NCBI RefSeq assembly: GCF_037414475.1
Contig: NZ_CP147913.1
Span: 6,508,001-6,572,000, forward strand
Source of the DNA: Myxococcus stipitatus
Lineage (GTDB): Bacteria; Myxococcota; Myxococcia; Myxococcales; Myxococcaceae
Direction of reading: 5' to 3'
DNA length: 64,000 bases
In this document: piece after piece, positions 42,246 through 57,219 of the stretch
Position numbering within the stretch: position 1 is the first letter of the stretch
Layout: each line of letters starts with the position of its first letter
Position numbers and translations under genes: made by a program
The notes under the pieces: model-generated
Told to the model about the DNA's origin: nothing
The model's database searches: none
What the model saw: the letters and a program-made list of their open reading frames with translations, nothing else

Positions 42246-43424
42246 TCAGGGCGCCGCGGGAGCCTGGCCCGCGACGGCGGCCACGGAGACGGCCTCCATC
42301 TGGCCCGCGAGCTCCTGGGCCTTGGCCAGGAAGTCCGGCAGCAGCGTCTTGGGCAGCGGGTCCGCGCGGGGGAACTTCTGGTTGAGCGGGTTGGTGTAGC
42401 CGCCGCCGCGCTTCATGCCGAAGTGCAGGTGGGGACCGGTGGAGCGGCCCGTGTTGCCGGAGTAGGCGATGACCTGCTTCTGGCTCACGCGCGAGCCCAC
42501 GCGGATGCCCTCGCCGAACTTGGACAGGTGCATGTACTGCGTCTCGTAGCCGTTGGCGTGGCGCAGGACGACCATGTTGCCCGCCGCGCCGGAGTACGCC
42601 GCCTGCGTCACCGTTCCGTCCGCCACGGCCCACACGGGCGTGCCGATGGGCGTCCCGTAGTCCACGCCGTTGTGGTTCTTCAGGTACTGGAGCACGGGGT
42701 GGAAGCGGGAGCCGAACTTGCTGGTGACGTGGGCGTACTTCAGCGGGCTCTTGAGGAAGGTCTTCTTCGCGCTGGCGCCGTCCTCCTGGAAGTAGTTGGG
42801 CTGGCCGTCCGGCAGCACGTAGCGGAAGACCTTCTTGGGGCCCACCAGCCCCCCCGTGTACTGGGCGGCGAGCACCTCGCCGTAGCGCAGCACGCGGCCC
42901 TTGGAGACGAACTTCTCCACCAGGGCGCGCGCGGTGTCGCCCTTGCGCACGTCCCGGTAGAAGTCGATGTCCCAGGCGAAGACGTCCGCCAGCACCATGC
43001 CGATGGCCGGGTCCTCGCCCGCGTCCACGGCGGCCTCGTAGAGCGACGTCTGGATTTCGAGCGCGACGACGGCCACCTGCTTCTCGACCTCGATGGCGCG
43101 CTTGCTGCCGACGAACTTCTCTCCGTCGCGGCGCACCTGCCACTCGTCGACCATGCTCTGGCGGTAGTCGAAGAAGTCCAGCTCGCCATCGCGCAGGACG
43201 ATACGGAACTGGTCGCCCACGCGGGACTTGCGGAAGTCGAACACGCCCTCCAGCGCCGCGATGACGGCGGTGACCTGGGCGTCCGGGAGCTGGGCCTCAT
43301 GCAGGGCGCCCGCGAGTGTCTGGCGCGGCTCGATGCGGCGGTTCTTGATTTCGTACCGGAGGGCGGCCTCCGAGGAGGACCCGGCCAGCAGGGCGGCCAG
43401 CAAGCAGAGGGGGGCGATTCGCAT
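42246..43424 (-). CDS. secreted M23 (LytM-type) endopeptidase
   Basis: A 392-residue exported protein. A Sec signal peptide (1-20, SSSEA-A) is followed by an N-terminal OapA/LysM-like region and a C-terminal M23 domain. The metalloprotease motifs are HNGVDYGTPIGTPV (zinc His and Asp) and TGPHLHFGMK (HxH). These enzymes cut peptidoglycan cross-links; some relatives have lost ligands, but here all are present. The gene follows the fungalysin-like gene by 84 bp on the same strand and may share its transcript. It converges on the deacetylase gene with a 52-bp gap. The ATG at 43424 starts the signal peptide; a GTG nine codons earlier is an alternative. Confidence 0.85.
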   Translation of the reverse strand: MRIAPLCLLAALLAGSSSEAALRYEIKNRRIEPRQTLAGALHEAQLPDAQVTAVIAALEGVFDFRKSRVGDQFRIVLRDGELDFFDYRQSMVDEWQVRRDGEKFVGSKRAIEVEKQVAVVALEIQTSLYEAAVDAGEDPAIGMVLADVFAWDIDFYRDVRKGDTARALVEKFVSKGRVLRYGEVLAAQYTGGLVGPKKVFRYVLPDGQPNYFQEDGASAKKTFLKSPLKYAHVTSKFGSRFHPVLQYLKNHNGVDYGTPIGTPVWAVADGTVTQAAYSGAAGNMVVLRHANGYETQYMHLSKFGEGIRVGSRVSQKQVIAYSGNTGRSTGPHLHFGMKRGGGYTNPLNQKFPRADPLPKTLLPDFLAKAQELAGQMEAVSVAAVAGQAPAAP

Positions 43425-43508
43425 GGGGCGGGGCGCGAGTGTAGTGGACACCCGCGCCCCTGCCCAACGGATGGCTTGGGATTTCGTCCCCGCCTGCCTG
43501 CTCGGCGG

Positions 43509-46500
43509 TCAGCTTCGGCGTCGGCGGCCTCGAATCAAGGCCACCCCCGCGAGCCCCAGGAGCCAGGCCAGGTTCGTGTCGCCCCTCGTCGCGACGCAGG
43601 AACACCCACCGGGCTCCTCCGGTCCCTGCCCGGGTCCCGCATCTGGAACGGGCCCGGCGTCCGGGAGCGGGCCGGCGTCCGGAGTCCCCGCGTCGTGGCC
43701 GGCATCCGGAGTCCCCGCGTCGTGGCCGGCATCCGGAGTCCCCGCGTCGGGCCGTGGGCCCGCGTCGGGGGGCCCCGCGTCGGGAGTGCCAGCATCGGGA
43801 GTGCCAGCATCGGGCCGCGGGTCCCTGGGCCGGACCGTGACCTTCACCCGGTCCGTGGCGGAGAGGCCCGCGACGTGGACGGCCAATTCGAACTCCAGCT
43901 CGGTGTCCTGTCCCACGTTGGGGGCGGTGAAGTCGGGCGTGCCGGTGTCCGCGCCGCGCAGGCTCACGGTGGTGGCGGGCACCTGACGCCAGGAATAGGT
44001 GAGCGGCGCGGTGCCCGGGTCCGAGCTCCGCGAGCCATCCAACCGCACCGTCTCACCCTCGAGCACACGCTGGTCCTCGCCGGCGTGGGCAATGGGGTGG
44101 CAGGGGCTGGCGTCCTCGATGCGCTCCAGGAACGGAGCGGTGGCTGTTCCCTCCACGGTGATGTTGTCGAGCTCCCACCCGTGGGCGGTGAAGACCACGT
44201 CGGACCCCAGGCGGAAGCGGAACTTCACCGTGCTTCCGCTCAGGCTCGTGCCGAAGTCGAGGACGACGGGCTCGCTGTCGGGCCAGCGCGGATTGCGCCC
44301 CGCGTACGCGAACCGGCCACGCAGGGGATTCGACGTGCGGTTGTCGAGCACCTTCTCCTTGTAGCCAGGGTTGAGCAGGGTCAAGACATCGGTCCAGGTG
44401 AGTCCGTTGTCGCGCGTGAACTCGATGACTCCGCCGCTCCAGTAGAACCGCTCGCCCGTGGAGGGCTCCTGGCGGAAGTCGAACTCGTGGCGGTGTTCGA
44501 AGCGCAGGACGAACGGAGTGCCCGGCGCAATGGGCAAGGGAGGCGTCTCCAGCGCGACGTCCGCGAAGGGGACGGGCTCCGCGGCGAACCAGACGTTCTC
44601 CCCAGGGATGCGCGGTGACGCGACGATTCGCCAGGCGTGTGCTTCCGCGCCCTGGAGCACGCGAGACCGCCACGTGGTCCGCACCGGGTCGGCCCGGTCC
44701 GTCCTGGAAGGAGTCAGGTCATAGTTGAGCAGGACGGACTTCGAGTGCTCCGCGCGCGGCCGGCACGCGTCACCGCTCTCCAGCACGATGTTGTACGCCA
44801 CCGCCGCGGAGACCTCCTGACCGCCCGAGAGGGCCACGGGAATCTCCACGGTGGACGGCTCGAAGGGCCCCACCTCTCCCAGCGCGGCGGAGTTCCCCGT
44901 GGGGAAGGTCACCATCGGGTTGTTGCTGGAGACCGTCACCCGCGCATCGGTCGACGCGAGCGGGCCGTGATTGTAGACGTGAACCCGGATGACACCGGTC
45001 TCCGACGCATCCAACACCCCATCCGAGTCACACGAGCGCCCCTGGTCCTCCACCTGGATGGACTCCAGTTGGACGTCCGAACGGGCCCGGTCGTCCTGGA
45101 CCACCTCGGTGAACGTCCTCGACTCAGGAGGAGGAGACACGGCGCAGGTTCCCGCGCCCCGCCGGGCGAAGCCCTGGGCCAGCGCCCGCATGTCCGCCGG
45201 GTCTCTCTGCATGGCCGCCATCAGCATGAGGTCCCGCTGCTCGGTGAAGGTGACGTTGTCGGGGGCCATCAGCATGGCCTCCACGACGTAGGTCGCCATG
45301 CGGCGCCGGGCCTCCTCGAACGTCGCGATGCGAGGCGTGCTTCCGCGGGTGTCGTCGAGCAGGGATTGATAGGCCTCGAAGAGCATGGAGGCCCAGACCT
45401 CTCCCGCGTTGTGGAGCTCCGAGTTCGCCAACTCATTGTCTCGCAGATAGGTCTGCGTGGGGAGTGGCTCGTCATCGGCGATGTGCTGGAACTGAAAGCC
45501 ATTCCGGGTGAGGTCGCGCGAGTACGGCGACCTGCGGACACCGTAGTAGGCGCTGTCGCCCAGGACTTCGGCGGCGTACGCGCCAATCGCATACATCCCG
45601 TTGGGCGCATCTCCCTCCTGGACCATCATGTGCAACGCCACGAAGTCGCTCCAACCCTCGCTCATGGCGCGGCACTGCGGCGTCGTGCAGCCGACCATCC
45701 GGCGGAAGAGGATGTGCGCCCACTCATGGGCCACGACGGTGTTGTCGAGCGATGAGTCCCGTTCGGGCGGCGCTGTCCTCGACATGGTGCCCGACAACGA
45801 ACCCCGGGCGAGCAGGTCCTTGAGCGCCTGGCCATCCTCGAAGGAGACGGAGAGGACGGGAATCGTGGTGGAGAGGGCCGGGTCCACGTCGGGCATGTTC
45901 GGCGCGGGGGCCCCGGGGCTGTTGTTGACGATGATGAGCGCCGCGGCGTTGGCGCTCTCGGCGTTCACGGCCTTGAGCTCCATGTTGCAGGTGCCGCGGT
46001 CGGCCAGGACGATGGCGTTGGTGACCGGGTTCTGGAGCGGTTCACAGGCATCCGTGGTTGTGCCCGTGCCATCCAGGCCCAGCACCAGCTGCCGCGAGGA
46101 CAGCGTGAACTTCTGGGCGCCGAACTGCGCGAACCCCGTGTCATACGCCCGGCCGGAAACGGAGAGCGTCCGGGTCTCCGCCGAATTCCACAGCGCGAAC
46201 TCCAAGCGGGGGGACACGCCGTCGCGAGGGACGTAGGCGAGCGCGGAGTTGCGCGCCTGGGGGTCGGGCCCCAGGTTCTGCGCCTCGGCGAGCACGGGGT
46301 CTCCACCAAGTCCACCCGGCTCGAAGTCCACCTCCTGTGCATTGCCCGCGGGCTCGTTGAAGCCGGAGTCGTAGTAGTAATCGTGGAGCCAGTTGGTGGT
46401 GTAGAACAGTTGCACCACCGAGGCGGAGATCTGCGCCGGGCTGCTCATCGGCTCCGCGAGGGGGTCATGGACATGCGGGAAGTCCCGGGTGCCCGGCGTC

Positions 46501-47624
46501 ACCTGCGCGCGGACGTCCTGGCCATCGGTGTAACCATCTGGGTCGAAGTGGTCCGCGTAGGCGCGGACATTGTTGCCCCACGTGACGCTCGCGCCTGAGT
46601 TCAGCCACGGGTCGACCCTGCCGTTGCCGGGATGGACCCGGCCCTCCCAGGTGATGGCCGTGGGAGGAAGGAATCCCGAGGGGCTCTGGCCTGGCTCCGT
46701 CCCAGGATACGGAGAGAAGTCGGCGGTGGGGCTGTCCGCGGGGGTTCCATCCGCCGCGCGGGCCCACACCCGATAGACATAGGCGTCGTTCGCGGTCCGG
46801 TCCTCGCGCAAGAGCACCTGCCCGGTGCTCGCATGCAGGACATGGACATGGCCGCGTGGCCGCACCTCACCCGCCTTCGAGGAGAGCAGGTCCACGGTGT
46901 ACGCGGGGACAAGCCCGTGGGCCGTGGGGAAGTAGTTCTTCGTGACGCGGGCTGGCTCCACCAGGGAGATGCCAGCGCGCTGGATGGAGCCACCGGGGAG
47001 CAGCTCGAAGCGCGGCGCGTCCTGATGGGTGACACCCGCCGCGGCCTGGAGCGTTCCCACCAGCGACAGGCCATGGACGTCTCCCAGCGCCTTCAACACC
47101 GCCTCTGACGGAGGATAGGCAAACGCCTCCCGCGCTGCTTGAAGCTCCGGCGCCACGCCTCCCTGAAGGTTTCCGGAGAGCGCCACGAGCTCCAGGTTCC
47201 GGCTCAGGAGCATCTTCAATTCGCTGTGCACGACCTCCAATCCCGCCACGCGCTGCCGGAAGCGCACGATGATGCCACCGCGTCCCAGGTCATGGACGTG
47301 ATGGACATACACCGTCTCCAGGTCCCTGGAGGACAAACCATACATCTCCGCATGCTGCCGGAGATAAGTGTTTGCCGCGGCCTCGGGCGAGGAATGGGCT
47401 TTCACGAACGGCGCCTGGTCCGTGCGGTGCGCCCGGACCAGGGTGGGGACACCGCGGGTTGCGTCCCGGGACAGCACTGTCACGACGGACGACGGCGCCT
47501 GCTCCCCACCGACTTGCGCTTGCAGGTCGGCGGGGCTGCTGGAAGGCGACTCCCCGGTGCAGCTGGCACAGAGGGTCAAGGCCAGTACCGCGATGGACCC
47601 ACGACTCCTTGGACTCTTGGGCAC
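43509..47624 (-). CDS. M36 fungalysin-type metalloprotease with PA, PKD-like and MYXO-CTERM regions
   Basis: A 1371-residue exported protease. A signal region (to about residue 22) precedes an FTP-type propeptide (about 60-250), then a catalytic region with HEWAH (about 632-636) and a downstream MSEGWSDF ligand segment, both typical of M36. A PA domain (about 525-605) is inserted before the zinc motif. A CARDB/beta-sandwich region follows, then a PKD/K319L-like Ig domain (SYSWRQVP type) and a TPDAG-repeat linker. The last 30 residues (GCSCVATRGD, AWLLGLAGVAL, RGRRRR) form a MYXO-CTERM sorting signal, implying surface anchoring or processing. The GTG at 47624 has a GGGGGG upstream; earlier in-frame codons lack one. 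Confidence 0.85.
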   Translation of the reverse strand: MPKSPRSRGSIAVLALTLCASCTGESPSSSPADLQAQVGGEQAPSSVVTVLSRDATRGVPTLVRAHRTDQAPFVKAHSSPEAAANTYLRQHAEMYGLSSRDLETVYVHHVHDLGRGGIIVRFRQRVAGLEVVHSELKMLLSRNLELVALSGNLQGGVAPELQAAREAFAYPPSEAVLKALGDVHGLSLVGTLQAAAGVTHQDAPRFELLPGGSIQRAGISLVEPARVTKNYFPTAHGLVPAYTVDLLSSKAGEVRPRGHVHVLHASTGQVLLREDRTANDAYVYRVWARAADGTPADSPTADFSPYPGTEPGQSPSGFLPPTAITWEGRVHPGNGRVDPWLNSGASVTWGNNVRAYADHFDPDGYTDGQDVRAQVTPGTRDFPHVHDPLAEPMSSPAQISASVVQLFYTTNWLHDYYYDSGFNEPAGNAQEVDFEPGGLGGDPVLAEAQNLGPDPQARNSALAYVPRDGVSPRLEFALWNSAETRTLSVSGRAYDTGFAQFGAQKFTLSSRQLVLGLDGTGTTTDACEPLQNPVTNAIVLADRGTCNMELKAVNAESANAAALIIVNNSPGAPAPNMPDVDPALSTTIPVLSVSFEDGQALKDLLARGSLSGTMSRTAPPERDSSLDNTVVAHEWAHILFRRMVGCTTPQCRAMSEGWSDFVALHMMVQEGDAPNGMYAIGAYAAEVLGDSAYYGVRRSPYSRDLTRNGFQFQHIADDEPLPTQTYLRDNELANSELHNAGEVWASMLFEAYQSLLDDTRGSTPRIATFEEARRRMATYVVEAMLMAPDNVTFTEQRDLMLMAAMQRDPADMRALAQGFARRGAGTCAVSPPPESRTFTEVVQDDRARSDVQLESIQVEDQGRSCDSDGVLDASETGVIRVHVYNHGPLASTDARVTVSSNNPMVTFPTGNSAALGEVGPFEPSTVEIPVALSGGQEVSAAVAYNIVLESGDACRPRAEHSKSVLLNYDLTPSRTDRADPVRTTWRSRVLQGAEAHAWRIVASPRIPGENVWFAAEPVPFADVALETPPLPIAPGTPFVLRFEHRHEFDFRQEPSTGERFYWSGGVIEFTRDNGLTWTDVLTLLNPGYKEKVLDNRTSNPLRGRFAYAGRNPRWPDSEPVVLDFGTSLSGSTVKFRFRLGSDVVFTAHGWELDNITVEGTATAPFLERIEDASPCHPIAHAGEDQRVLEGETVRLDGSRSSDPGTAPLTYSWRQVPATTVSLRGADTGTPDFTAPNVGQDTELEFELAVHVAGLSATDRVKVTVRPRDPRPDAGTPDAGTPDAGPPDAGPRPDAGTPDAGHDAGTPDAGHDAGTPDAGPLPDAGPVPDAGPGQGPEEPGGCSCVATRGDTNLAWLLGLAGVALIRGRRRRS
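43636..43818 (-). repeat. tandem repeats encoding the T-P-D-A-G linker
   Basis: A low-complexity stretch with two perfect 27-bp copies (43684-43710 and 43711-43737), a third partial copy, and 15-bp copies near 43787-43816. It codes for repeated PDAG/TPDAG units between the Ig-like and MYXO-CTERM parts of the protease, and could vary in length by slippage. Confidence 0.85.
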
Positions 47625-47670
47625 TTGACCCCCCACTGTTCGTAGCGGTCCCTCGAGGAGACCGCGACCT

Positions 47671-50600
47671 TCACCGGCAGATATCGGTATCCCGCAGACG
47701 ACTGAGATGGCCCACCGCATTGCCAGTCAGTGAGCGGGCATACATGCCGCCGACCCAGCTTCCACTATTGAAGCTGACGTGTGCGTTGGGCGCAAGGACA
47801 GTGCCGTAGAAGCCATAGTCAAGCGCGGTGAGTGTGGTTGCGTCTGGAAGGTTGAAGAGCACACCGGTCTCATCAATGCCACCTTCGAAGACATGGCCGA
47901 AGTTGGCGAAGCGCGCCGACGCGCCACGCACGTTGATGACCACCATCGAGTTGGCGGGGGCGGAGATGGTCAAAAGCGTGGCGTTGTTGATGGCGGCGGC
48001 CTCCACCTGGAAGACGTTCGCCTTGGGGTCGGTCCCTCGCAGGGTGATGCCGCCCCAGGACTCGACGGTGGTGGTTCCCCGGAGGGGGAGGGCGGCCAGG
48101 TCCGTGGAGAGCCTGCGCAGGGACGCGCCCAGGGTGGCGAAGTTGACGGGGACGCCCTGCCTCACCGAGCCCCTGGGGAAGACGACATTGCCCGTGGGCA
48201 GGTACTGCCCGCCATACCGGGCCTCACCCCAGACGGTGCCGTTGTCGAGCTCCAGGTTCTGGCCCGCCACCAGGACGTTGTCGTTGTCGTTCGCCGGCAA
48301 CTGCCAGCCGACCCGGAAGTCCTTGAGCTGGAGGGTGCCACCCGCGGCGACCCTTCCTCCCACGTCGATGCCGCCCCGGTAGTCCTCCAGGACGAAGAGG
48401 TTGTGGTCATTGAGCCGGACCTGGACGCAGTTGGCCACGGGCTTCTCCAGCACCACGACGGAGATGCTCGTGGTCACCGTCCCGTTGCGAATCACGATGG
48501 TGGCGATTCCCAGCCCCGTGGCCGTCACCACGCCCGCGGGAGTCACCGTGACGATGCCGTCGTTGGAGGACGAGTAGATGGTCCCCAGCTCCCGCGCGGT
48601 GATGTTGCGGATGACGCCGTCGTTGTAGTGGCCGTTGACCGTCAGGTTCATCGTGGAGCCAATCCCGTGGAGGACGGCATCGCCGTTGAGGATGGAGATG
48701 ACGCTGAGCCTCGCGGAGGAGACCACCGGCAGGACGACGGGCGCCGACACCCGCATGCGCTTCTGGGCGTTGATGCCCGTGGCCACCAGTTGCACCGAGC
48801 CGATGGCCTCGAGAGGAATCTGGAAGGACGTGGTGAAGGGGGGCTCATCCATCGTGGCCACGCCTCCCGCGCCGGCGACGTACGCGAGGACGGGAACGAA
48901 GCCGTCGGTGCCCTCCGTCACCACCGTCACGGTGGCGCCAGGACTCACCGCGGTGCCCGGGGCGGGCGAGACGATTCGGATTCCCCCGGCGAGCAGCGGC
49001 TCTTCCCACGCCCGCGCCGCGTCGTCGGGAAGGGCCTCCCCTCGCTCCTCGGAGGCGTGCTCTTCCGGCGCGAACACCCCCGTGCAGTTCGGAGGTGGGG
49101 GCGCACTGGGCGTGGCGAGCATCGGGTCGAAGAGGTTGCTCGCGATGGGGCTGTTGAGCAGCTCCACGGTGCGCTGGAAGTAGGCCGGGTTGGTCGGCGT
49201 CCTGAAGTGATTCAGCGTCGGGGTGGTGATGCTCATCATGAAGGAGGTGGTCGCCTGCGTGGAGGCGCCGCCCTGCTGGTCCTTCGTGGTGGCGAACATG
49301 TCGAAGTCCTGGTCGCAGAACAGCTTGCTCGACTGGACGTTCTGGGTCGGGGGCCGCGCGATGTTGGCCCTCATGATGAGGTTGTGGGTTCCCGGAGCCA
49401 GCAACCCGTCCGACAGCGGGTGATAGGTCTCCATGTTCGTGTAGATCATCTTGATGGCGTCCAGCAGCGCCGGGTGCGCGTTCTTGCGCTCGATGTTCTG
49501 CCCGTTCGCCGAGACGAGGACGTGGGTGGGGACGCGGGTCTCTCCAATGGCCAGCAGCGCGGGGCTGTTGAGCTTCAAGTCATCGATGGCCATGGGACTG
49601 ACGCCGTCGGCCGCGTCGAGCGAGAAGTTGAAGGCCCTGAGCAGCTCGGCGTTGAGGCTCGCCCACTCCGCCGCGAAGTTGTTCTTCATGTTCGCGCGGA
49701 CGTCCGTGAGGGCGTTCGCCACCAGCGTGCCCGCGTGGGGGGTGTTGGAGAGGATGAGGCGGTTGAGGTCTCCCTTTCCATAGTTGTTCGCGTTCAGGTA
49801 GCTGCTCCGGCTGGCGAACTTGCGCGCCAGGAGCCCGCCCGTGCCGTGGCCAATCACATCCACCTGGGTCACCGCGGTGCCCTCGTCGCGCATCTTCACC
49901 AGCGCGGTGCGGATGGCCCGGCCCACCACCGTGCTGTTGGCGGGCGAATCGATGCTCTCCGAATTGGTGCTCTTGTAGTCGGCGCACGTCACGTTGTGCA
50001 GGCTGCTGCTGGAGATGCCCGCGTTGCCCCAGAAGTCGCAGCCGGACCAGACGTCGTGGATGGTCACCACCGGCGGGCGCACCACGGTGATGACGTGGGT
50101 GTCGGTGAAGGGCGCGCCGCCGTTGGGCGTGTACGTGGTGGTGAGGCCGACGGTGCGTTGCCGGGCCATGTCGTCATTCGTGTTGCCGGGGCGCTTGAAG
50201 TCCTCGGGGGGCAGGTAGAGCGCGAACGCGAAGAACTGCCCGGGGGCGACCTCTTCGACGCGGGTGACGATGGTGTTGGTGGGCGCAGCCACGCTGCCAA
50301 TGGGGACCAGGCCGCCGTTGGAGGGGTCGTGGGTGGCGCCCATCGTGAAGGTCATGTTCCCCAGGCTCGACACGCGGGCGCGCAGGAGCACCGCGCTCAC
50401 CCCGTCGGCGGCCACGGAGCGCGCGGGCGTGCCGAGCGTCGACAGCCGCAGCGTGTTGGTCTCCACCGAGTTCAGGAACGTGTCGATGAGCACGGGGTTG
50501 GGGTCAATCATCTCCAGGCTCGCGAAGGCCACGTTGTCGATGACCACCGTGGAGTCCAGGATGCCGTCGCCCAGGTCGCGAATCTCGAACACGAGGGTGA

Positions 50601-51375
50601 TGGGGCCGCCCCCGGTGATGGGGATGTTGATGCTCTTGAAGTCGGTGATGCCGGCATCGGGGAACAGCTGGATGCCCTCGGGGTAGTTCGCGGGGAAGTT
50701 GTCGATGCCGGACGGGTCGTCCGCGAGCAGCGAGTCGAACTTCGTGTTCTTCGCGCGGGTTTCGGAGGCATCGAAGAAGTGCGCGCTGTTGACGGACGTC
50801 TGCTCCGCCAGCCGTGTCCCCTGGATGTCTGTCACATGGGCGGTGAACTGGTCGTTGTACTGGCTGCCGATGAAGTCGGGCGACTCGGCGCTCAGGAAGC
50901 GGTAGTCGAAGGACAGCCGTGTCATGCCCCGAGGCACGTTGAAGGTGATGCGCACGGTGGCGACATCACCGTCCGGGCCCGCGGGGGCGAAGTCGGTGCC
51001 GGGCTCGGGTAGTCGGACCGCGTCGCCGACGTGGCCGGTGCTCAGGACGAGCATGGAGTCGCCCTTGCGCGGCGCAATCTCTCCGAAGCGCTGGAGGACC
51101 ACCGCCGCCTGGGGCACGGGGGAGGTGACCTGCCCCGACACGAACGAGCCCGCGGGGAGGTCCAGCGCGGTGGCTACCTCGGCGGCCGTGGCGAGCGAGG
51201 CCCCCTGGACGGCGGGCTCCAGCCGGTGGTTCTTGAACTTCGCGCGCTCCGCGCTCATGTCGCGGAAGACCTCGGTTTTCGGTGGAGGCGGCTGCGGCTC
51301 GTGGGGGCTGACATCGCCACACGCCAGGGCCAGCGCGATGACGAGCGGGAGCAGGGAGACTTTGCGCGTCTGCAT
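47671..51375 (-). CDS. large exported protein with choice-of-anchor L, lipase-like, Big_2-like and choice-of-anchor A domains
   Basis: A 1234-residue exported protein (signal MQTRKVSLLPLVIALALAC, lipobox-like end). Residues about 45-290 resemble choice-of-anchor L domains (LVLSTGHVGDAV; SFDYRFLSAESPDF). About 420-700 is alpha/beta-hydrolase-like with an elbow reading VIGHGTGG, where Gly replaces the expected Ser; an SDGLLAPGTHN segment near 650 resembles the acid loop. About 890-978 is an Ig-like Big_2-type module. About 982-1230 resembles choice-of-anchor A (VLEDYRGGIDVGGRVAAGG; VVINVRG). The lipase part may be a binding module rather than an enzyme. The ATG at 51375 opens the signal; it lies 46 bp upstream of the fungalysin gene. 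Confidence 0.75.
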   Translation of the reverse strand: MQTRKVSLLPLVIALALACGDVSPHEPQPPPPKTEVFRDMSAERAKFKNHRLEPAVQGASLATAAEVATALDLPAGSFVSGQVTSPVPQAAVVLQRFGEIAPRKGDSMLVLSTGHVGDAVRLPEPGTDFAPAGPDGDVATVRITFNVPRGMTRLSFDYRFLSAESPDFIGSQYNDQFTAHVTDIQGTRLAEQTSVNSAHFFDASETRAKNTKFDSLLADDPSGIDNFPANYPEGIQLFPDAGITDFKSINIPITGGGPITLVFEIRDLGDGILDSTVVIDNVAFASLEMIDPNPVLIDTFLNSVETNTLRLSTLGTPARSVAADGVSAVLLRARVSSLGNMTFTMGATHDPSNGGLVPIGSVAAPTNTIVTRVEEVAPGQFFAFALYLPPEDFKRPGNTNDDMARQRTVGLTTTYTPNGGAPFTDTHVITVVRPPVVTIHDVWSGCDFWGNAGISSSSLHNVTCADYKSTNSESIDSPANSTVVGRAIRTALVKMRDEGTAVTQVDVIGHGTGGLLARKFASRSSYLNANNYGKGDLNRLILSNTPHAGTLVANALTDVRANMKNNFAAEWASLNAELLRAFNFSLDAADGVSPMAIDDLKLNSPALLAIGETRVPTHVLVSANGQNIERKNAHPALLDAIKMIYTNMETYHPLSDGLLAPGTHNLIMRANIARPPTQNVQSSKLFCDQDFDMFATTKDQQGGASTQATTSFMMSITTPTLNHFRTPTNPAYFQRTVELLNSPIASNLFDPMLATPSAPPPPNCTGVFAPEEHASEERGEALPDDAARAWEEPLLAGGIRIVSPAPGTAVSPGATVTVVTEGTDGFVPVLAYVAGAGGVATMDEPPFTTSFQIPLEAIGSVQLVATGINAQKRMRVSAPVVLPVVSSARLSVISILNGDAVLHGIGSTMNLTVNGHYNDGVIRNITARELGTIYSSSNDGIVTVTPAGVVTATGLGIATIVIRNGTVTTSISVVVLEKPVANCVQVRLNDHNLFVLEDYRGGIDVGGRVAAGGTLQLKDFRVGWQLPANDNDNVLVAGQNLELDNGTVWGEARYGGQYLPTGNVVFPRGSVRQGVPVNFATLGASLRRLSTDLAALPLRGTTTVESWGGITLRGTDPKANVFQVEAAAINNATLLTISAPANSMVVINVRGASARFANFGHVFEGGIDETGVLFNLPDATTLTALDYGFYGTVLAPNAHVSFNSGSWVGGMYARSLTGNAVGHLSRLRDTDICR

Positions 51376-51509
51376 CAGGTTCACTCCGTTGCGTTGAGCG
51401 GGAGAGACGGTCGACTGCGGCACGGCGATGCGATGAACAGGCGCGGCCACCCAGCGGTTCTCCACTGGGTGGCCGGCGAGCGATTCGAAAGATGCGCGGT
51501 GCGGAAGGA

Positions 51510-53372
51510 CTACTTGCGCTTCGCGGACATCGCGTAGTCGCGGTGCCACCTGGCCGGCAGCGTCGCCAGCACGTTGGGGTTCTGCTGCGTCATGGCGATG
51601 GACTCGTACTTCGCCTGAATCTGGCCATCACCCACGACGAAGCCGTTGGCGTAGACGACGGTCTGGTCCGCGCCGAGCGCCAGCTTCTCCGCGTCCGAGC
51701 CGACCTTCACGTTGTAGACCTTGCCGGCATACGCCTCGCGGCTGACCTCCACGAGCTTGCTGGGGCCCGTCTTGGTCATCACCACGTCGCCCGTCTTCAG
51801 GTTGCGCGCCTGCACCATGCCGCGCGCCATCACCTGGATGGGGTGCATCTCCGTCATCAGCAGGCTGCGCCCCGCGTCGTTGCGGATGCGCACCATGGGG
51901 ACCGTCTCGGTGCCCACGGCGGTGTCCATGACGGTGAGCGAGGGCTTGTGCGGGTTGCGCACGCGGTCGCCGGCCTTGACCGACTCCACCGGGGCCACCT
52001 GGCCCTCGGCGAGTTCGATTTCGGTGCCCGCCGCCAGACAGCTGTTGGTGACGGTGATTTTCTTGAACGTGTAGTCCGGCCGGGGGAAGCGCGGGTCGGG
52101 GCTCGCGAGGGTGACGGAGGACTGGTACGTCTGTCCGCCCACCGAGGCGACGACGGGCAGGACGATGCGCAGCGACAGCTTCACCTCGTTCTGCACCTGG
52201 CGGCAGCCATCGTCGAAGAAGGCCGAGTTCGCGCCCGTCAGGTCCCACGAGAAGGTCTTCTTGTCGGGGCTCAGGTTGGCGCCCCTCCAGAACTGGCTCA
52301 TCTTCGCCTCGATGAGGTTGCCGTCCGTGACGTCGCAACCCCCACCGGCGTTGGTGAGGATGAGCTTGAGGTGGCCCACGTCATACGTGGGCGTGCCCGC
52401 GTTCAGGTCGGTCTTGAACTGGGTGATTTTCGCCGCGTCGAAGAGGTGCTCGGACGTGAGGGACATCTGCCCCTTCAAGGGCAGCTTCACGGCCTGGGGC
52501 GTGCCGGTCAGGTCGTAGTCGCAGTCCTGGGTCCACGTGCGGTTGAGGCACACGGAGATGAGGCCGTCGTTCAGCACCGTGTCCACGGGCGCGTACACGA
52601 GCAGCTGGGAGAACACCGGCCGCGACGACGTGATGCCGGCGGGGGCGCCGAACTCCGAGAAGATGTACGAGTCCTTGAACCCCTCGACGGAGTCCTCGAC
52701 CTTGTAGGAGGACACGCGGTAGCGGCCCTGGGTCGTCAGCGACAGGTTGCCCGTGGTCGCGATGGGGAGGTCCTTGCCGCCGTCGTACTCCTCGATGAAC
52801 TTGAGGTCGCCCAGCGGGTTGCCGGACGCGTCGGTGAAGTTGGTGTCCGTGTACGTGTAGTAGCTGCCACCCGGGAAGGTGGAGCGCGCGACGCCGATGC
52901 CGTCGTTGGGCTCGGGCGTGGTCTCACCCGCGTTGGCCGCCTCGATGAGGTGCATCTCCTTGCGGTCCGCGGACGTGGCCAGCCCCCGGGGCTCCTCGGA
53001 CGCGAAGCTACCCGCAGCCAGGCCCTGGCTCAGGTGGTCCTTCTGGCGCTGCTCCAACGCCTGGAACAGGTACGGCGAGTTCTCCGGCGTCTTGCCCGCG
53101 AGCCTCAGGCGCGCCACGGCGAAGCGGTACTGCGCCGGGTCCGCGAAGTTCAGCCGGACGCGGACATCCGGCTTGGCGATGCTGTGCAGGTAGCCTTCGT
53201 CCGCCCGGTAGGCGTTCCACTCGGCCTTGCTGAGGCGTCGGGCATCTCCCACGCCCTGCATCGTGCGCCCCGCGTTGGTGAGCTGCTCTCCCTGGGGACT
53301 GGAGGTGCAACCCGACAAGAAGGCCAGGCAGGCGGTGCTACCCATCACCAGATAACGACGCATTCGTGACAT
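51510..53372 (-). CDS. Hint-domain lipoprotein
   Basis: A 620-residue lipoprotein; the signal ends in LAFLSGC, a typical lipobox. Residues about 25-440 are a beta-rich region of unknown family. From Cys445 (NSCLAAGTEIELAEG) to about 575 there is a Hint (Hedgehog/intein) fold: the VESVKAGDRV segment, the block-B motif T507-E-M-H510 followed by PIQV, and ARNLKTGDVV. The usual intein end His-Asn is absent (VVYANGFVVGDG), so splicing is unlikely, but N-terminal cleavage at Cys445, as in Hedgehog or BIL proteins, is possible. GGAGGAGG precedes the ATG at 53372. It lies 29 bp after the subtilisin gene on the same strand. Confidence 0.75.
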   Translation of the reverse strand: MSRMRRYLVMGSTACLAFLSGCTSSPQGEQLTNAGRTMQGVGDARRLSKAEWNAYRADEGYLHSIAKPDVRVRLNFADPAQYRFAVARLRLAGKTPENSPYLFQALEQRQKDHLSQGLAAGSFASEEPRGLATSADRKEMHLIEAANAGETTPEPNDGIGVARSTFPGGSYYTYTDTNFTDASGNPLGDLKFIEEYDGGKDLPIATTGNLSLTTQGRYRVSSYKVEDSVEGFKDSYIFSEFGAPAGITSSRPVFSQLLVYAPVDTVLNDGLISVCLNRTWTQDCDYDLTGTPQAVKLPLKGQMSLTSEHLFDAAKITQFKTDLNAGTPTYDVGHLKLILTNAGGGCDVTDGNLIEAKMSQFWRGANLSPDKKTFSWDLTGANSAFFDDGCRQVQNEVKLSLRIVLPVVASVGGQTYQSSVTLASPDPRFPRPDYTFKKITVTNSCLAAGTEIELAEGQVAPVESVKAGDRVRNPHKPSLTVMDTAVGTETVPMVRIRNDAGRSLLMTEMHPIQVMARGMVQARNLKTGDVVMTKTGPSKLVEVSREAYAGKVYNVKVGSDAEKLALGADQTVVYANGFVVGDGQIQAKYESIAMTQQNPNVLATLPARWHRDYAMSAKRK

Positions 53373-53401
53373 GGTGTTTCCTCCTCCGCTTGAAACAGCT
53401 T

Positions 53402-54790
53402 TCACTGACAGACTTGCTGGAAGTCGGGGCAGCAGTCGTTGAACTCCAGGCACGTCGGGTCGCAGAAGCAGCCCGTCGCCGCTCCGCCGCACAATCCCTT
53501 GCAGCTGTTGGGGTCGGCGACACATTGGTAGTTGCCCTGGCTCAAGTCGCTGAAGAGCAACGAGTTGGGGGAGCCCTGGAGGTCATCCACGCACCCGAGC
53601 GAGGCCGCGCCCAGGAGGTTCACGGAGACCTGCGCGGGGGTGGCCCCTCGGTGGCCTCCCAGGTACTGGGCCACGGCGCCCGCGACATGCGGGGCGGCCA
53701 TGGACGTACCGTCGTCGATGTTCGTCGCCACCGCGTCCCCCGACCAGGCGCCGAGGATGCTCACGCCGGGCGCGAAGAGGTCGACGCAGGGGCCCCAGTT
53801 GGAGAAGAAGGCCCGCTTGTCGTTGTCGTCGACGGCGCCCACGTTGATGACCTTGGGCTCGCTTCCCGGGGACTCGTTGCAGGCGTTGATGTTGCTGTTG
53901 CCCGCCGCCGTCACGACGGTGATGCCCGCGTCGACCAGCGCCGCCGCGGCCTGGTTGACGGGCTGGAAGAACTCACCGGAGAGGCTCAGGTTGGCGACAC
54001 AGGGGCCGTCCTGCCGGGGGCAGTCGGTCCGCACGAAGTCCATGCCCGCGATGATGGTGCCCCACGTCGCGCGGCCGATGCAGTTGAGGATGCGGACCGG
54101 ATGGAGGGTGGCCTGCTTCGCCATGCCGTATTGCGTCCCCACCGCGGTGCTGGCCACGTGGGTGCCATGGCCGTGACAGTCCTCCACGCCGAAGCCGTCG
54201 AAGACGAACGACGCGAAGGAGCCCACCCGTCCGGTGAACTCCGAGTGCTCCGTGTTGAGCCCCGTGTCGAGCACGTACACGTGGACCCCGGCGCCGGTGT
54301 TCTCGTAGTCGTTGTACTGGCCGTCGCGCCCCTGGCGCTGGTCCACGCGGTCGATGCCATCCGAGGGGCTGGGCACGGCGCTCTGCAACCAGACGTGCCG
54401 GTTCTCCTCGATGTACGCCACGCCCGGGTCCCGGCGCAGCCGGTCGAGCTGCGTGTCATCCAGGCGCGCGGTGAAGCCCGGGATGAGGGAGTAGCGGTGC
54501 AACAGCGCGTTGGCTCCGCCCGCGCGGGCGAGGGTGTCCGCCGCGGACGTGAGCGCTCCACCTGAGATTCCCTGGGTGAAGACCACGACATATTCACCGG
54601 GCACACGCACGGACTCGGGCGCGCGGTGGAGCTTCGCGAGCTCCACGCCTTCGACGCCGTCGGACGCCGGCGCGTCCGGTGGGGGCTGCTCCGTGCAGGC
54701 GCTGCCGCCCAGCGCGAGCGCGCCCAGCAGGGACAGGGTTCGCAACGTCACGGCGCGAGCGCGGTGGGCGAGGCTTGGATGTTGCCGCAT
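53402..54790 (-). CDS. S8 subtilisin-like protease with C-terminal somatomedin-B-like domain
   Basis: A 462-residue exported protease. The N-terminus has a hydrophobic signal ending at GSAC (Cys32), then an inhibitor-I9-type propeptide (about 66-137). The proteinase-K-like catalytic domain has Asp175 (VLDTGLN), His211 (GHGTH) and Ser363 (GTSMAAPHVAG). The C-terminal 35 residues contain eight cysteines in the somatomedin-B order (C-x3-C-x6-C-x-C-x3-C-x5-CC-x6-C). SMB modules are best known from animal extracellular proteins such as vitronectin; here it may bind a host or prey protein or stabilise the enzyme. The ATG at 54790 opens the signal and has GGAG upstream. Confidence 0.85.
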   Translation of the reverse strand: MRQHPSLAHRARAVTLRTLSLLGALALGGSACTEQPPPDAPASDGVEGVELAKLHRAPESVRVPGEYVVVFTQGISGGALTSAADTLARAGGANALLHRYSLIPGFTARLDDTQLDRLRRDPGVAYIEENRHVWLQSAVPSPSDGIDRVDQRQGRDGQYNDYENTGAGVHVYVLDTGLNTEHSEFTGRVGSFASFVFDGFGVEDCHGHGTHVASTAVGTQYGMAKQATLHPVRILNCIGRATWGTIIAGMDFVRTDCPRQDGPCVANLSLSGEFFQPVNQAAAALVDAGITVVTAAGNSNINACNESPGSEPKVINVGAVDDNDKRAFFSNWGPCVDLFAPGVSILGAWSGDAVATNIDDGTSMAAPHVAGAVAQYLGGHRGATPAQVSVNLLGAASLGCVDDLQGSPNSLLFSDLSQGNYQCVADPNSCKGLCGGAATGCFCDPTCLEFNDCCPDFQQVCQ

Positions 54791-55043
54791 GGTGTCTCCG
54801 CTGGAAGGCAAACGGGCAGTGCTCGCCCGACACGCACCACCCTCGGGAGGGTCGGGTGGCGAGCGCGGGACGAATGGGAATGAGCGGCGTGTGGGGCCGG
54901 GAGCCGCTCGATGGCGTGAATCCGTGTGGCTCCATGCGCACACGGCGGACGCGAACGGCGGCGGAATGCACTTCGGGGGACCCAGCGCCGTTCGCGAACT
55001 AAGGACGCGCGCGGCCTTCAACCTATGCAGAGATTCTCAATAT

Positions 55044-55943
55044 TCACTTTGGGTGAATAGTTTCATTGAGAATGCGGCTGAGGCTGAGATGGATGTGGCT
55101 TTCGACGGTGCGGAGCAGGCTGGTGAACTCCTGTGACGAGAGGTCCAGCCGCTCCATGAGGAGTCGTCGCGTCTCGTCGTGGACGGCCTGCTGGGCGCTC
55201 TGGAGCCACCGGGAGACCGTGGACTGGTTGACATTGAAAAGGGGGGCCAGCCGAGTGGTGGAGAGCCGGTCCACGAAGTGCAGCCGCAAGAGGTAGCGGT
55301 GCTCGCTGGGGAGGATGGCGAAGGCATCCTCGAGGGCGCGGCGGAACTCGTCCTGGTAGCGCCGCTGGATGGTCTCCACCTCGGGGTCCGCGTCTGGGGA
55401 GGGCACCAGCTCCAGGAGGGCGTCGCTGAGCGAGCCTTCCTCCTGAGGCTTTCTCAGCAGGCTCAGCGCCGTGCGCAGCGAGACGACCCGCACCCAGTTG
55501 GAGAGGGTTCCTCGCCCTGAGTACTCCGCGATGCGTGGCGCGGTGTCGGTGCGGACCAGCAGCCGCTCCCTCACGCGCTGGCGGATCTCATCCACCACCG
55601 CGGAGGGCAGCCGCATGTGCGCCAGCGCCGAGCCCACCCCCGCCATGTGCTGCCGTTCAAAGGCGGCGAGCGCGGCGGGAATGCTCTGCGCGCAAGCACA
55701 CGCCAGATACAGGTCTCCGGGGACGAACTGGGTAAGCAATGACTCCCATTCATCCGGAGTGGAGCGCCGAGGAAAGTGCAGGGCGAGATGACGGATGAAG
55801 GTATCAGGTGCCAGGGCAATGTCTGGCCATCGCTCAGAGCCCGCTCGCCAGAAGCGGACCAGGAGAGGTTCGAGGCCTTCCGGGGCGTTGTCCCTCAAGC
55901 CACGGCAGCCCGCATGCGCGAGAAATAACGGTGCGAACGCCAA
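55044..55943 (-). CDS. myxobacterial sigma-70 factor (TIGR03001 type)
   Basis: A 299-residue sigma-like protein. It lacks an obvious strong region 2 in its first half but has a region 4 helix-turn-helix (LSTTRLAPLFNVNQSTVSRWLQSAQQAV) and a preceding ALEDAFAILPSEHRYLLRLHF segment. This is the pattern of the Myxococcales-specific TIGR03001 sigma family that neighbours Ser/Thr kinases. A TTG at 55943 is chosen as the start because a perfect AGGAGGGAGGGG tract lies just upstream. The GTG eight codons earlier (55967) has none and would translate the Shine-Dalgarno tract itself. The gene is divergent from the kinase gene and precedes the secreted-protein cluster by 253 bp on the same strand. Confidence 0.8.
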   Translation of the reverse strand: MAFAPLFLAHAGCRGLRDNAPEGLEPLLVRFWRAGSERWPDIALAPDTFIRHLALHFPRRSTPDEWESLLTQFVPGDLYLACACAQSIPAALAAFERQHMAGVGSALAHMRLPSAVVDEIRQRVRERLLVRTDTAPRIAEYSGRGTLSNWVRVVSLRTALSLLRKPQEEGSLSDALLELVPSPDADPEVETIQRRYQDEFRRALEDAFAILPSEHRYLLRLHFVDRLSTTRLAPLFNVNQSTVSRWLQSAQQAVHDETRRLLMERLDLSSQEFTSLLRTVESHIHLSLSRILNETIHPK

Positions 55944-56148
55944 TCCCCCCTCCCTCCTGGCCACCACTATAACCGACCAGGCAGGCCTTGCTGGCTATGC
56001 AAGATAAGCTGAGTGAAGGTCGTCTTTGTGCATGAAATAAGCGAGTTGCTCGGCTTTCTGAAATGCGGCTGTTTTTGTGCGAGACTTCCCGGGGATGTCC
56101 TGAGGGGGGTGCCACATTCTTTCGTCCACCTGCCTGTGTGAAGAAGAC

Positions 56149-57219
56149 GTGGTGTCACTTCTGGAAGGGAGGTTGGAGATGGGGGCTCGGGTCCATCTCC
56201 ACCATCACGCGGCCGAGTGCCCCGCGTGCCGTGCGCTCCTGGTCGCCGCCGTGAGGAGCGACGGCGTCCCGTCCGGTACGGCGCTGGAGAACCAGGAGGC
56301 CACGTGGCGGGGGCTCGTCCCCGGTGAGAGCTGGAAGCCGCCCACGCAGCTGGATGAGTTCCGGCTGGTGCGGCTGTTGGGCCGAGGCGGCATGGGCGCC
56401 GTCTACCTGGCGCATGACACGTCGTTGGACCGGCTGGTGGCGTTGAAGCTGAGCGTCGCGCTCCAGCCGGACACGCGCACGGTGGCGAGCTTCGCCGTGG
56501 AGGCGCGAGCGATTGCGCGTATCAAGCACCCCAACGTGGTCACCGTGTTCCGGGCCGGAGAGGTCCAAGGGCGGCCGTATCTGGTCTACGAATATGTCGA
56601 GGGCAAGAGCCTGGCGGAGCTGCGCCTGCCGTTGCCGTGGCGGTACGTGTTGGACATCGCGGTGGGGCTGGCGCGAGGACTGAGGGCGGCGCACCAGCGC
56701 GGGGTGTTGCACCGGGACTTGAAGCCGGGCAACGCCATCCTGGATACGGATGGCACCGTCAAGTTGCTCGACTTCGGGCTCGCCGCGTTCGTCGAGGCGG
56801 ATCTCCTGACGCCCAGGGGGGTGTCCGGGGTGGTGGGGACACCGCGCTACCTGGCGCCCGAACTCTGGTCCGGCGCGGAGGCGACGCCTCAGAGCGACCT
56901 CTATGCGCTGGGGCTGCTCTTGTACGAGCTGTGCACGGGGACGCTGCCCCGCACCCCAGGCCCGCTGTCCCGGCTGTCCGGCGCCACGGAGCCCCTGGGC
57001 TGGAGCGGGGCGCTGCTGGAGCGTGCTCCTGGCATCGACCCGGAGTTCGCCCAGGCCATCGAGCGGTGCCTCGCGGAGGACCCGCTGCAGCGCTTCGTCA
57101 GGGCGGAGGCGCTGTGTGGTGTGTTGGAGCGGCTGGGTGGCGGACCCGTGGACGCGGCGTTCGCCGCCGCCAGGTCCGAGCACGGGGCGCGGACCTGGGG
57201 GGCGCACCACACGCTGTAG
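56149..57219 (+). CDS. Ser/Thr protein kinase with N-terminal zinc-finger-like motif
   Basis: A 356-residue soluble protein kinase. The N-terminal 30 residues include His20-x3-Cys24-x2-Cys27 (HAAECPAC), like the zinc motif of ZAS anti-sigma domains and common in this group of myxobacterial kinases. The kinase domain (about 71-335) has LGRGGMGAVYLAHD, Lys100 (VALKLS), the catalytic loop HRDLKPGN with Asp190, and DFG with Asp208. No transmembrane segment is seen. The GTG at 56149 is the first conventional start. The open frame continues to 56104, and a strong GAGGGGGG ribosome-binding tract (56102-56109) lies upstream of a possible ATT start at 56116, so the N-terminus may be longer. It is divergent from the sigma gene. 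Confidence 0.85.
   Translation: MVSLLEGRLEMGARVHLHHHAAECPACRALLVAAVRSDGVPSGTALENQEATWRGLVPGESWKPPTQLDEFRLVRLLGRGGMGAVYLAHDTSLDRLVALKLSVALQPDTRTVASFAVEARAIARIKHPNVVTVFRAGEVQGRPYLVYEYVEGKSLAELRLPLPWRYVLDIAVGLARGLRAAHQRGVLHRDLKPGNAILDTDGTVKLLDFGLAAFVEADLLTPRGVSGVVGTPRYLAPELWSGAEATPQSDLYALGLLLYELCTGTLPRTPGPLSRLSGATEPLGWSGALLERAPGIDPEFAQAIERCLAEDPLQRFVRAEALCGVLERLGGGPVDAAFAAARSEHGARTWGAHHTL

Follow-up and report, generated by a model that had tools for sequence, protein, structure and literature searches.

Genes of the locus

We analysed a window of 64,000 nucleotides from the single-contig, 10.31-Mb genome of Myxococcus stipitatus (GCF_037414475.1). It contains a cluster of genes for exported proteins, among them a putative lipoprotein with a Hint (bacterial intein-like, BIL) domain of predicted autoprocessing activity. 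An earlier, sequence-only reading of this DNA had described five consecutive minus-strand open reading frames (ORFs) with gaps of 29, 134, 46 and 84 bp, and we found them exactly so. The first gene in the direction of transcription (53402-54790) encodes an S8 subtilase with an I9 propeptide and a C-terminal somatomedin B (SMB) domain, a putative lipoprotein. It is followed by the Hint gene (51510-53372), whose 620-residue product was assigned from a Vint match, alignment, an AlphaFold model and PDB matches. Next comes the gene (47671-51375) of an adhesive-like putative lipoprotein, here called AnchLA, in which a choice-of-anchor L domain, a pseudo-alpha/beta-hydrolase and a choice-of-anchor A domain are combined. 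The run ends with the genes of an M36 fungalysin metalloprotease (43509-47624), which carries PA and PKD domains and a tail resembling MYXO-CTERM, and of an M23 murein endopeptidase (42246-43424, or 43451).

Two more genes, outside the coordinates of that reading, travel with this set. One, on the minus strand (55044-55967), encodes a TIGR03001 sigma factor of the sigma-70 'Myxococcales family 1'; the other, divergent on the plus strand (56149-57219), encodes a Ser/Thr protein kinase whose N-terminal region holds a zinc-finger-like motif, Hx3Cx2C, recognized by eye. Searches with hidden Markov models recovered the S8, I9, SMB, Hint, anchor L/A, M36 and M23 domains named earlier. The lipase did not survive, as the nucleophile serine is missing, and the MYXO-CTERM tail stayed below its threshold.

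A six-gene cassette conserved across genomes

We searched the Hint protein against 96 genomes of the family and obtained a match in at least 52 of them at E 1e-3; at least 22 places, our own included, spanned most of the protein. Ten window proteins were mapped onto the surroundings (16-20 kb) of 20 of the 21 non-self places; tblastn at E 1e-8 served to score orthology, with rows above 60 bits counted. As many of the genomes are drafts, absences in them carry less weight.

The order S8-Hint-AnchLA was observed in all 17 genomes having the Hint-AnchLA pair. In 15 of these 17, the window's genome included, the divergent kinase, the sigma factor, S8, Hint, AnchLA and M36 follow one another in this order; two of the 15 cassettes, those of G062 and G024, were pieced together across contig ends. 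M23 stands after M36 in only 11 of the 17. Hence the conserved synteny that the sequence-only reading had named as its own check is found for S8-Hint-AnchLA (17/17) and for the six-gene set (15/17), and is lacking for M23, a pre-existing neighbour at the insertion site. As this gene order is conserved, the earlier claim that the run is not a random series of hydrolases holds. The proposed five-gene unit was right in four members, S8, Hint, AnchLA and M36; it wrongly took in M23 and missed the two regulatory genes. The unit is a six-gene cassette of kinase, sigma factor, S8-SMB, Hint, AnchLA and M36, and it is real and conserved.

Insertion site and probable movement of the cassette

M23 and spoVR are present in one copy each in 27/27 same-genus genomes (E 1e-100). 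In ten of them, which carry the cassette at this site, the two genes lie 13,721-13,854 bp apart. The distance is 91-255 bp in 15 others and 1,203 bp in one (G060), none of which has a cassette there; it was unmeasurable in G062, where the genes are on separate contigs. At E 1e-80, no Hint orthologue was found in 15 of the 16 genomes with a short distance, and the remaining one, G068, has the cassette elsewhere.

Upstream of M23, outside the cassette, lies an element GTTGGGC...GTGTCCACTACACTCG (43436-43468, minus strand). At the empty sites it reads TGGGC...G[TC]GTCCACTA[CG]ACTCG, and by eye it is common to the window and the eight empty sites compared (nine short-distance sites were fetched, and G060 was left out). 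Since the empty sites keep spoVR and M23 close together along with this element, M23 is the old neighbour in whose upstream gap the cassette was inserted, and it is not a cassette member.

The cassette or its core sits away from spoVR-M23 in six of the 17 genomes (G068, G016, G017, G024, G041 and G035); neither spoVR nor M23 was found there in the stretch fetched around it. In six loci (L039, L040, L042, L043, L046 and L048), M23 is 92-93% identical to that of the window, against 46-68% for S8, AnchLA and M36 and 63-78% for Hint. In an unrooted tree, three Corallococcus cassettes, the ectopic Myxococcus cassette of G068 and those of Myxococcus G071 and G055 form one group with a Shimodaira-Hasegawa (SH)-like support of 1.0, and the other Myxococcus cassettes fall outside it. 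The identity matrices of the four large cassette genes correlate pairwise at 0.91-0.98, values that agree with joint transfer and say no more than that, since shared ancestry inflates them. A comparison of 351 bp with 401 bp at the two cassette ends showed no direct or inverted repeats of at least 11 bp joining them, and therefore we propose no mechanism of transposition.

The Hint protein and its predicted self-cleavage

The Hint protein scored 32.7 bits with Vint (cut-off 27); PT-HINT, Hint_2 and Hint remained under their cut-offs. From residue counts and structural alignment, its Hint domain spans residues 445-582 (51627-52040, minus strand), with Cys445 as Cys1, Asp483, Thr507-x-x-His510 and a terminal Asp582. 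Behind it, alignment reveals a conserved 38-residue C-terminal tail, GQIQxKYE...WHRDY..S..K (51513-51626, minus strand). Cys445, Thr507, His510, Gly581 and Asp582 are invariant in 33/33 homologues (L059_1, which has VWA but no Hint domain, is not in this count). Asp483 is present in 30/33, as are W609 and D612 of the tail, where the remaining three have a gap. The residue after the domain (+1, residue 583) is variable, namely G, S, N, A, D or L.

When the Hint domain of the AlphaFold model was compared with BIL, intein and Hedgehog structures, the top Z scores were 17-19 (18.0 to 1at0, 17.7 to 2lwy). Most of the alignment rows begin at residues 441-445 and end at 582-588, and the Hedgehog alignment with 1at0/6tyy begins at C445, facing their residue 258. 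By sequence, the best PDB match of the protein is the BIL 2lwy (9.8e-08). A-type BILs end in His-Asn; because Gly581-Asp582 stands in this place in 33/33 homologues, we did not file the domain as an A-type BIL. The Gly-Asp end and the variable +1 residue together lead us to predict N-terminal cleavage over splicing, at Ser444|Cys445 (52041/52040, minus strand), a position taken from the Hint domain alignment.

This boundary recurs in natural Hint-less relatives. A paralogue in G059 ends in ...IITNS, with a TGA exactly at the Cys1 codon, and another in G062 ends in ...LTNI, again with a TGA at that codon. The two are 57% identical, and behind them no Hint remnant was found in the fetched stretch, where matches at E<10 were noise only. 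In G080 the same kind of boundary, ...LTNS, is followed by a VWA domain; a further fragment in G058 is without this boundary end. These boundary forms represent one to three evolutionary events. Since the Hint-less paralogues and the VWA fusion share the boundary, Ser444|Cys445 would be the real end of an N-terminal product. The earlier call of a self-cleaving domain thus gains support from the catalytic residues (Cys1 and TxxH in 33/33) and from the Hint-less paralogues, and autocleavage at Ser444|Cys445 is likely.

The anchor L/A protein

In AnchLA both anchor models exceeded their cut-offs (choice-of-anchor L NF038133, 31.0 bits against 27; choice-of-anchor A TIGR04215, 182.3 bits against 29), and Pfam PGAP1 matched at 1e-5 (25.8 bits against 24.3). 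Alignment places a degenerate nucleophile elbow, HGTGG, at residues 510-514 (49834-49848, minus strand), with Gly511 replacing Ser. We considered an active lipase and rejected it: the Ser of G-x-S-x-G is replaced, and HGxGG is seen in 17/17 aligned sequences, L077 included. In the model the elbow joins strand 504-512 to helix 515-521. Foldseek, run with the model of residues 1-780, listed no alpha/beta hydrolase among its best 50 matches. For this reason the fold assignment, which we hold with moderate confidence, is based on Pfam PGAP1, on DUF676 in L077 and on the strand-elbow-helix of the model.

Full-length AnchLA was found in 17 of 195 genomes of the phylum, and all 17 carry a Hint orthologue; another 10 match its C-terminal anchor A domain only. 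On L077, a contig of a deltaproteobacterial metagenome-assembled genome, the Hint gene is severed by the contig end and is 52% identical over residues 333-619. Behind it come the genes of an anchor L/pseudohydrolase protein that ends in CBM2 and of an M4 protease of the thermolysin type, which has two SMB domains. The trio is thus retained on this more distant contig, with another protease family and another adhesive end in place of those of the window.

Proteases and regulators

The motifs D[TS]G, GHG[TS]HV and GTSMA are retained in 16/16 aligned S8 sequences, so that the Asp-His-Ser triad is kept, and the motif HEWxH in 13/13 aligned M36 sequences. The M36 tail has by eye a Cys motif, a hydrophobic stretch and an Arg-rich end; the MYXO-CTERM model TIGR03901 gave 17.8 bits against a cut-off of 20.

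The sigma factor scored 263.4 bits with TIGR03001 (cut-off 154.6). The kinase matched Pkinase at 6.5e-43 and is divergent beside the sigma gene in 15 of the 17 cassettes; its Hx3Cx2C motif, anti-sigma-like by eye, had no Pfam match. Upstream of S8, alignment of 13 of the 17 cassettes (G062, G024, G041 and G035 were left out) revealed the conserved element GAGAATCTCTGCATAGGTTGA (55018-55038, minus strand), a candidate recognition site of the sigma factor, in which TGCATAG occurs in all 13. With up to 3 mismatches allowed, the 10.3-Mb genome has a single site for the full element. A less well conserved candidate promoter element, TTGCATAG (55995-56002, minus strand), lies upstream of the sigma gene and is shared with the S8 promoter region. 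From the gene arrangement and this shared promoter-like element, the cassette apparently regulates itself. Sigma-70 promoters numbered 0 against 0.5 expected, and terminators 4 against 5.9 expected.

Other Hint-type loci

The genome of the window has three more Hint-tail proteins, at G000:C1:5570651, 3757258 and 6968251 (L056-L058), in differing neighbourhoods with no S8 or AnchLA matches; the Hint-tail gene of L056 has a divergent pair of sigma and kinase genes a few kb ahead of it. Members of two related lipoprotein families flank the Hint-tail genes of L060 and of L056/L062 and may form a second Hint-containing cluster with them. Proteins of one family have about 480-530 aa and no Pfam match; those of the other have about 490-570 aa and, in L060, an Ig-like domain. 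Far outside Myxococcota, Acanthopleuribacter pedis has a Hint homologue (36%) on each of two scaffolds (L075 and L076), whose stretches of more than 20 kb have near-equal ORF lists, either a large duplication or an assembly artefact.

Relatives of the N-terminal domain were also seen. The gene at L059:2069-3823 encodes a lipoprotein-like protein, in which part of this domain is fused to VWA, and it is convergent beside a Hint homologue. The two Hint-less N-domain genes, L148:4478-5638 and L149:1945-4302, are each followed by a repeat protein on the same strand, with Kelch repeats in the former and cadherin-like/tandem-95 repeats in the latter.

A proposed mobile cassette around a probably self-cleaving protein

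We propose, with a probability of about 60%, that the locus is a horizontally mobile, self-regulated surface-protein cassette around a BIL-type self-cleaving protein, with M23 excluded. The divergent kinase, with its anti-sigma-like zinc motif, and the TIGR03001 sigma factor would govern one operon, whose four exported proteins are probably lipidated for the most part. The Hint protein would cut itself at Ser444|Cys445: after an N-to-S acyl shift the chain would be cleaved there, and an N-terminal part of about 420 residues would come free from the Hint domain and the 38-residue tail. AnchLA, as a dead-hydrolase, adhesin-like partner, would not hydrolyse lipid and is more probably a binding protein, either for the released domain or for a ligand at the surface. 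Outside the cell, S8-SMB and M36 may act on the cassette's own proteins or on an external protein. A role in predation and the processing or attachment of other cassette proteins by the proteases, both suggested earlier, are conceivable.

Several observations weigh against this proposal. G041 has S8-Hint-AnchLA with an M36 fragment only and no sigma or kinase orthologue. G035 has the same three genes without sigma, kinase or M36 matches, and its S8 match covers residues 18-423 of 462, ending ahead of the SMB domain. The three other Hint paralogues of this genome have other neighbours, and full-length AnchLA is missing from five genomes with a Hint homologue (G002, G003, G007, G032 and G080); the co-occurrence scan scored at most 3 candidates per genome (a second one, at most 6). 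The element shared by the sigma and S8 upstream regions is only suggestive, since (T)TGCATAG is not enriched window-wide (6 matches with at most 1 mismatch, against 12.1 expected). The status of the cassette proteins as putative lipoproteins comes from lipobox-like motifs, and the lipobox scan missed the motif in many orthologues, partly from mispredicted starts. Lastly, the AlphaFold models are middling (mean predicted local distance difference test score, pLDDT, 66.9 for Hint and 63.6 for AnchLA), and no fold was identified for the N-terminal domain of the Hint protein, where the VIA-align rows fall mostly within the Hint domain.

If instead a partner amine, a surface sugar or a lipid attacks the thioester, as in Hedgehog, the N-terminal domain would be covalently anchored and the tail would serve as the acceptor-recognition region. 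The conserved tail and the constant Hint-AnchLA linkage are compatible with this scheme. So is Asp483, 24 residues ahead of the Thr of TxxH, which by spacing and local motif only may correspond to D46 of Hedgehog; the spacing is counted from the Hedgehog Thr and His. D303 (D46) is the Hedgehog general base according to PMC9163320. However, the Hint-less paralogues finish in a free C-terminus, the closest match by sequence is a BIL, and BILs mainly yield cleaved products (PMC7664689). Sterol transfer in particular is unlikely, because no match to the squalene/oxidosqualene cyclase family PF13243 was found in this genome, which probably makes no sterol of its own (the control search was positive in 2/14 genomes); sterol taken up from outside might still serve as acceptor. 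We thus regard conjugation as unlikely. The narrower version, in which a specific acceptor, with AnchLA as the prime candidate, receives the N-terminal domain from the Hint domain, giving sterol-free bacterial Hedgehog-like processing and a covalent surface complex with its own sigma factor, has a still smaller chance of being right.

Full splicing would excise the Hint domain (445-582) and join the N-terminal domain to the 38-residue tail. We consider it improbable: the +1 residue varies, and the penultimate residue is Gly in 33/33 homologues, where most inteins have His. On the other side stand the strongly conserved tail, the invariant Asp582 and several intein alignments that end at 582. 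In PMC7664689, class 1 inteins are said to end in Asn, Gln or Asp, and the penultimate His to be replaced in some inteins as well.

A contact-dependent toxin would be suggested by the PT-HINT-like domain (24.9 bits, below the cut-off of 27.7), yet only 38 residues with no Pfam match and no toxin domain follow the Hint domain. Phage defence would be suggested by the kinase, for which 34 PADLOC models gave a match (best 1.2e-65; of the 25 listed, most are PD-T4-6 kinases), and by S8, which matches the subtilase model and, weakly, IetS. These hits are limited to general catalytic domains, and PADLOC gave no match for Hint, AnchLA, M36 or the sigma factor. A toxin or defence system is therefore a poor candidate.

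The five-gene predation or surface-assembly unit including M23 is very improbable. The tight spacing in the window and the place of M23 behind M36 in 11/17 genomes speak for it, but M23 is found in every same-genus genome, close to spoVR in those that lack the cassette at this site, diverges far less in six loci than S8, Hint, AnchLA and M36 (92-93% against 46-78%), has its own conserved upstream element and had no match at the ectopic cassette loci. That exported hydrolases with no functional link came together by chance is just as hard to credit: myxobacterial genomes hold many exported hydrolase genes, but here the order is conserved at several loci, the genes move jointly and AnchLA occurs only with Hint.

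Comparison with known systems

No description of this cassette was found among the open-access papers listed in our searches, as judged from titles and openings of abstracts. Compared with BIL domains (2lwy), the Hint protein shares the best sequence match, the fold, Cys1, TxxH and the lack of a fixed +1 nucleophile; it differs in the GD that replaces the C-terminal HN. With the Hedgehog Hog domain (1at0) it has in common the fold, Cys1, a candidate general-base Asp and the layout of an N-terminal payload and a C-terminal extension, whereas no PF13243 cyclase was found in the genome. The M36 tail resembles those of the myxosortase/MYXO-CTERM proteins, as far as PMC11980579 describes them, in its Cys motif, hydrophobic stretch and Arg-rich end, but falls short of the TIGR03901 cut-off. 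AnchLA resembles choice-of-anchor L/A proteins in both anchor domains and differs from them in the dead alpha/beta hydrolase between the two.

The closest description is that of the secreted bacterial Hint-tail proteins, a further Hint subgroup including MXAN_6253 (a M. xanthus member), STIAU_1829 and plu1731 (Burglin 2008, PMC2362128), for which that paper cites Dassa and Pietrokovski 2005. In the part of the paper on this group, no function, neighbourhood or partners are given. The points of likeness are a C-terminal Hint-like domain, signal peptides in some members, two conserved cysteines upstream and a Myxococcus member. By description, the Hint protein of the window likely belongs to this group. 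Two readings taken from neighbourhood and domain names are corrected here: M23 does not belong to the cassette, and the anchor protein is not a lipase. A probable member of the secreted Hint-tail proteins now has a partner that is constant, a sigma factor linked to it and paralogues that are naturally 'pre-cleaved', and the insertion site of its cassette is mapped, so that its activity and role can be tested in Myxococcus laboratory strains.

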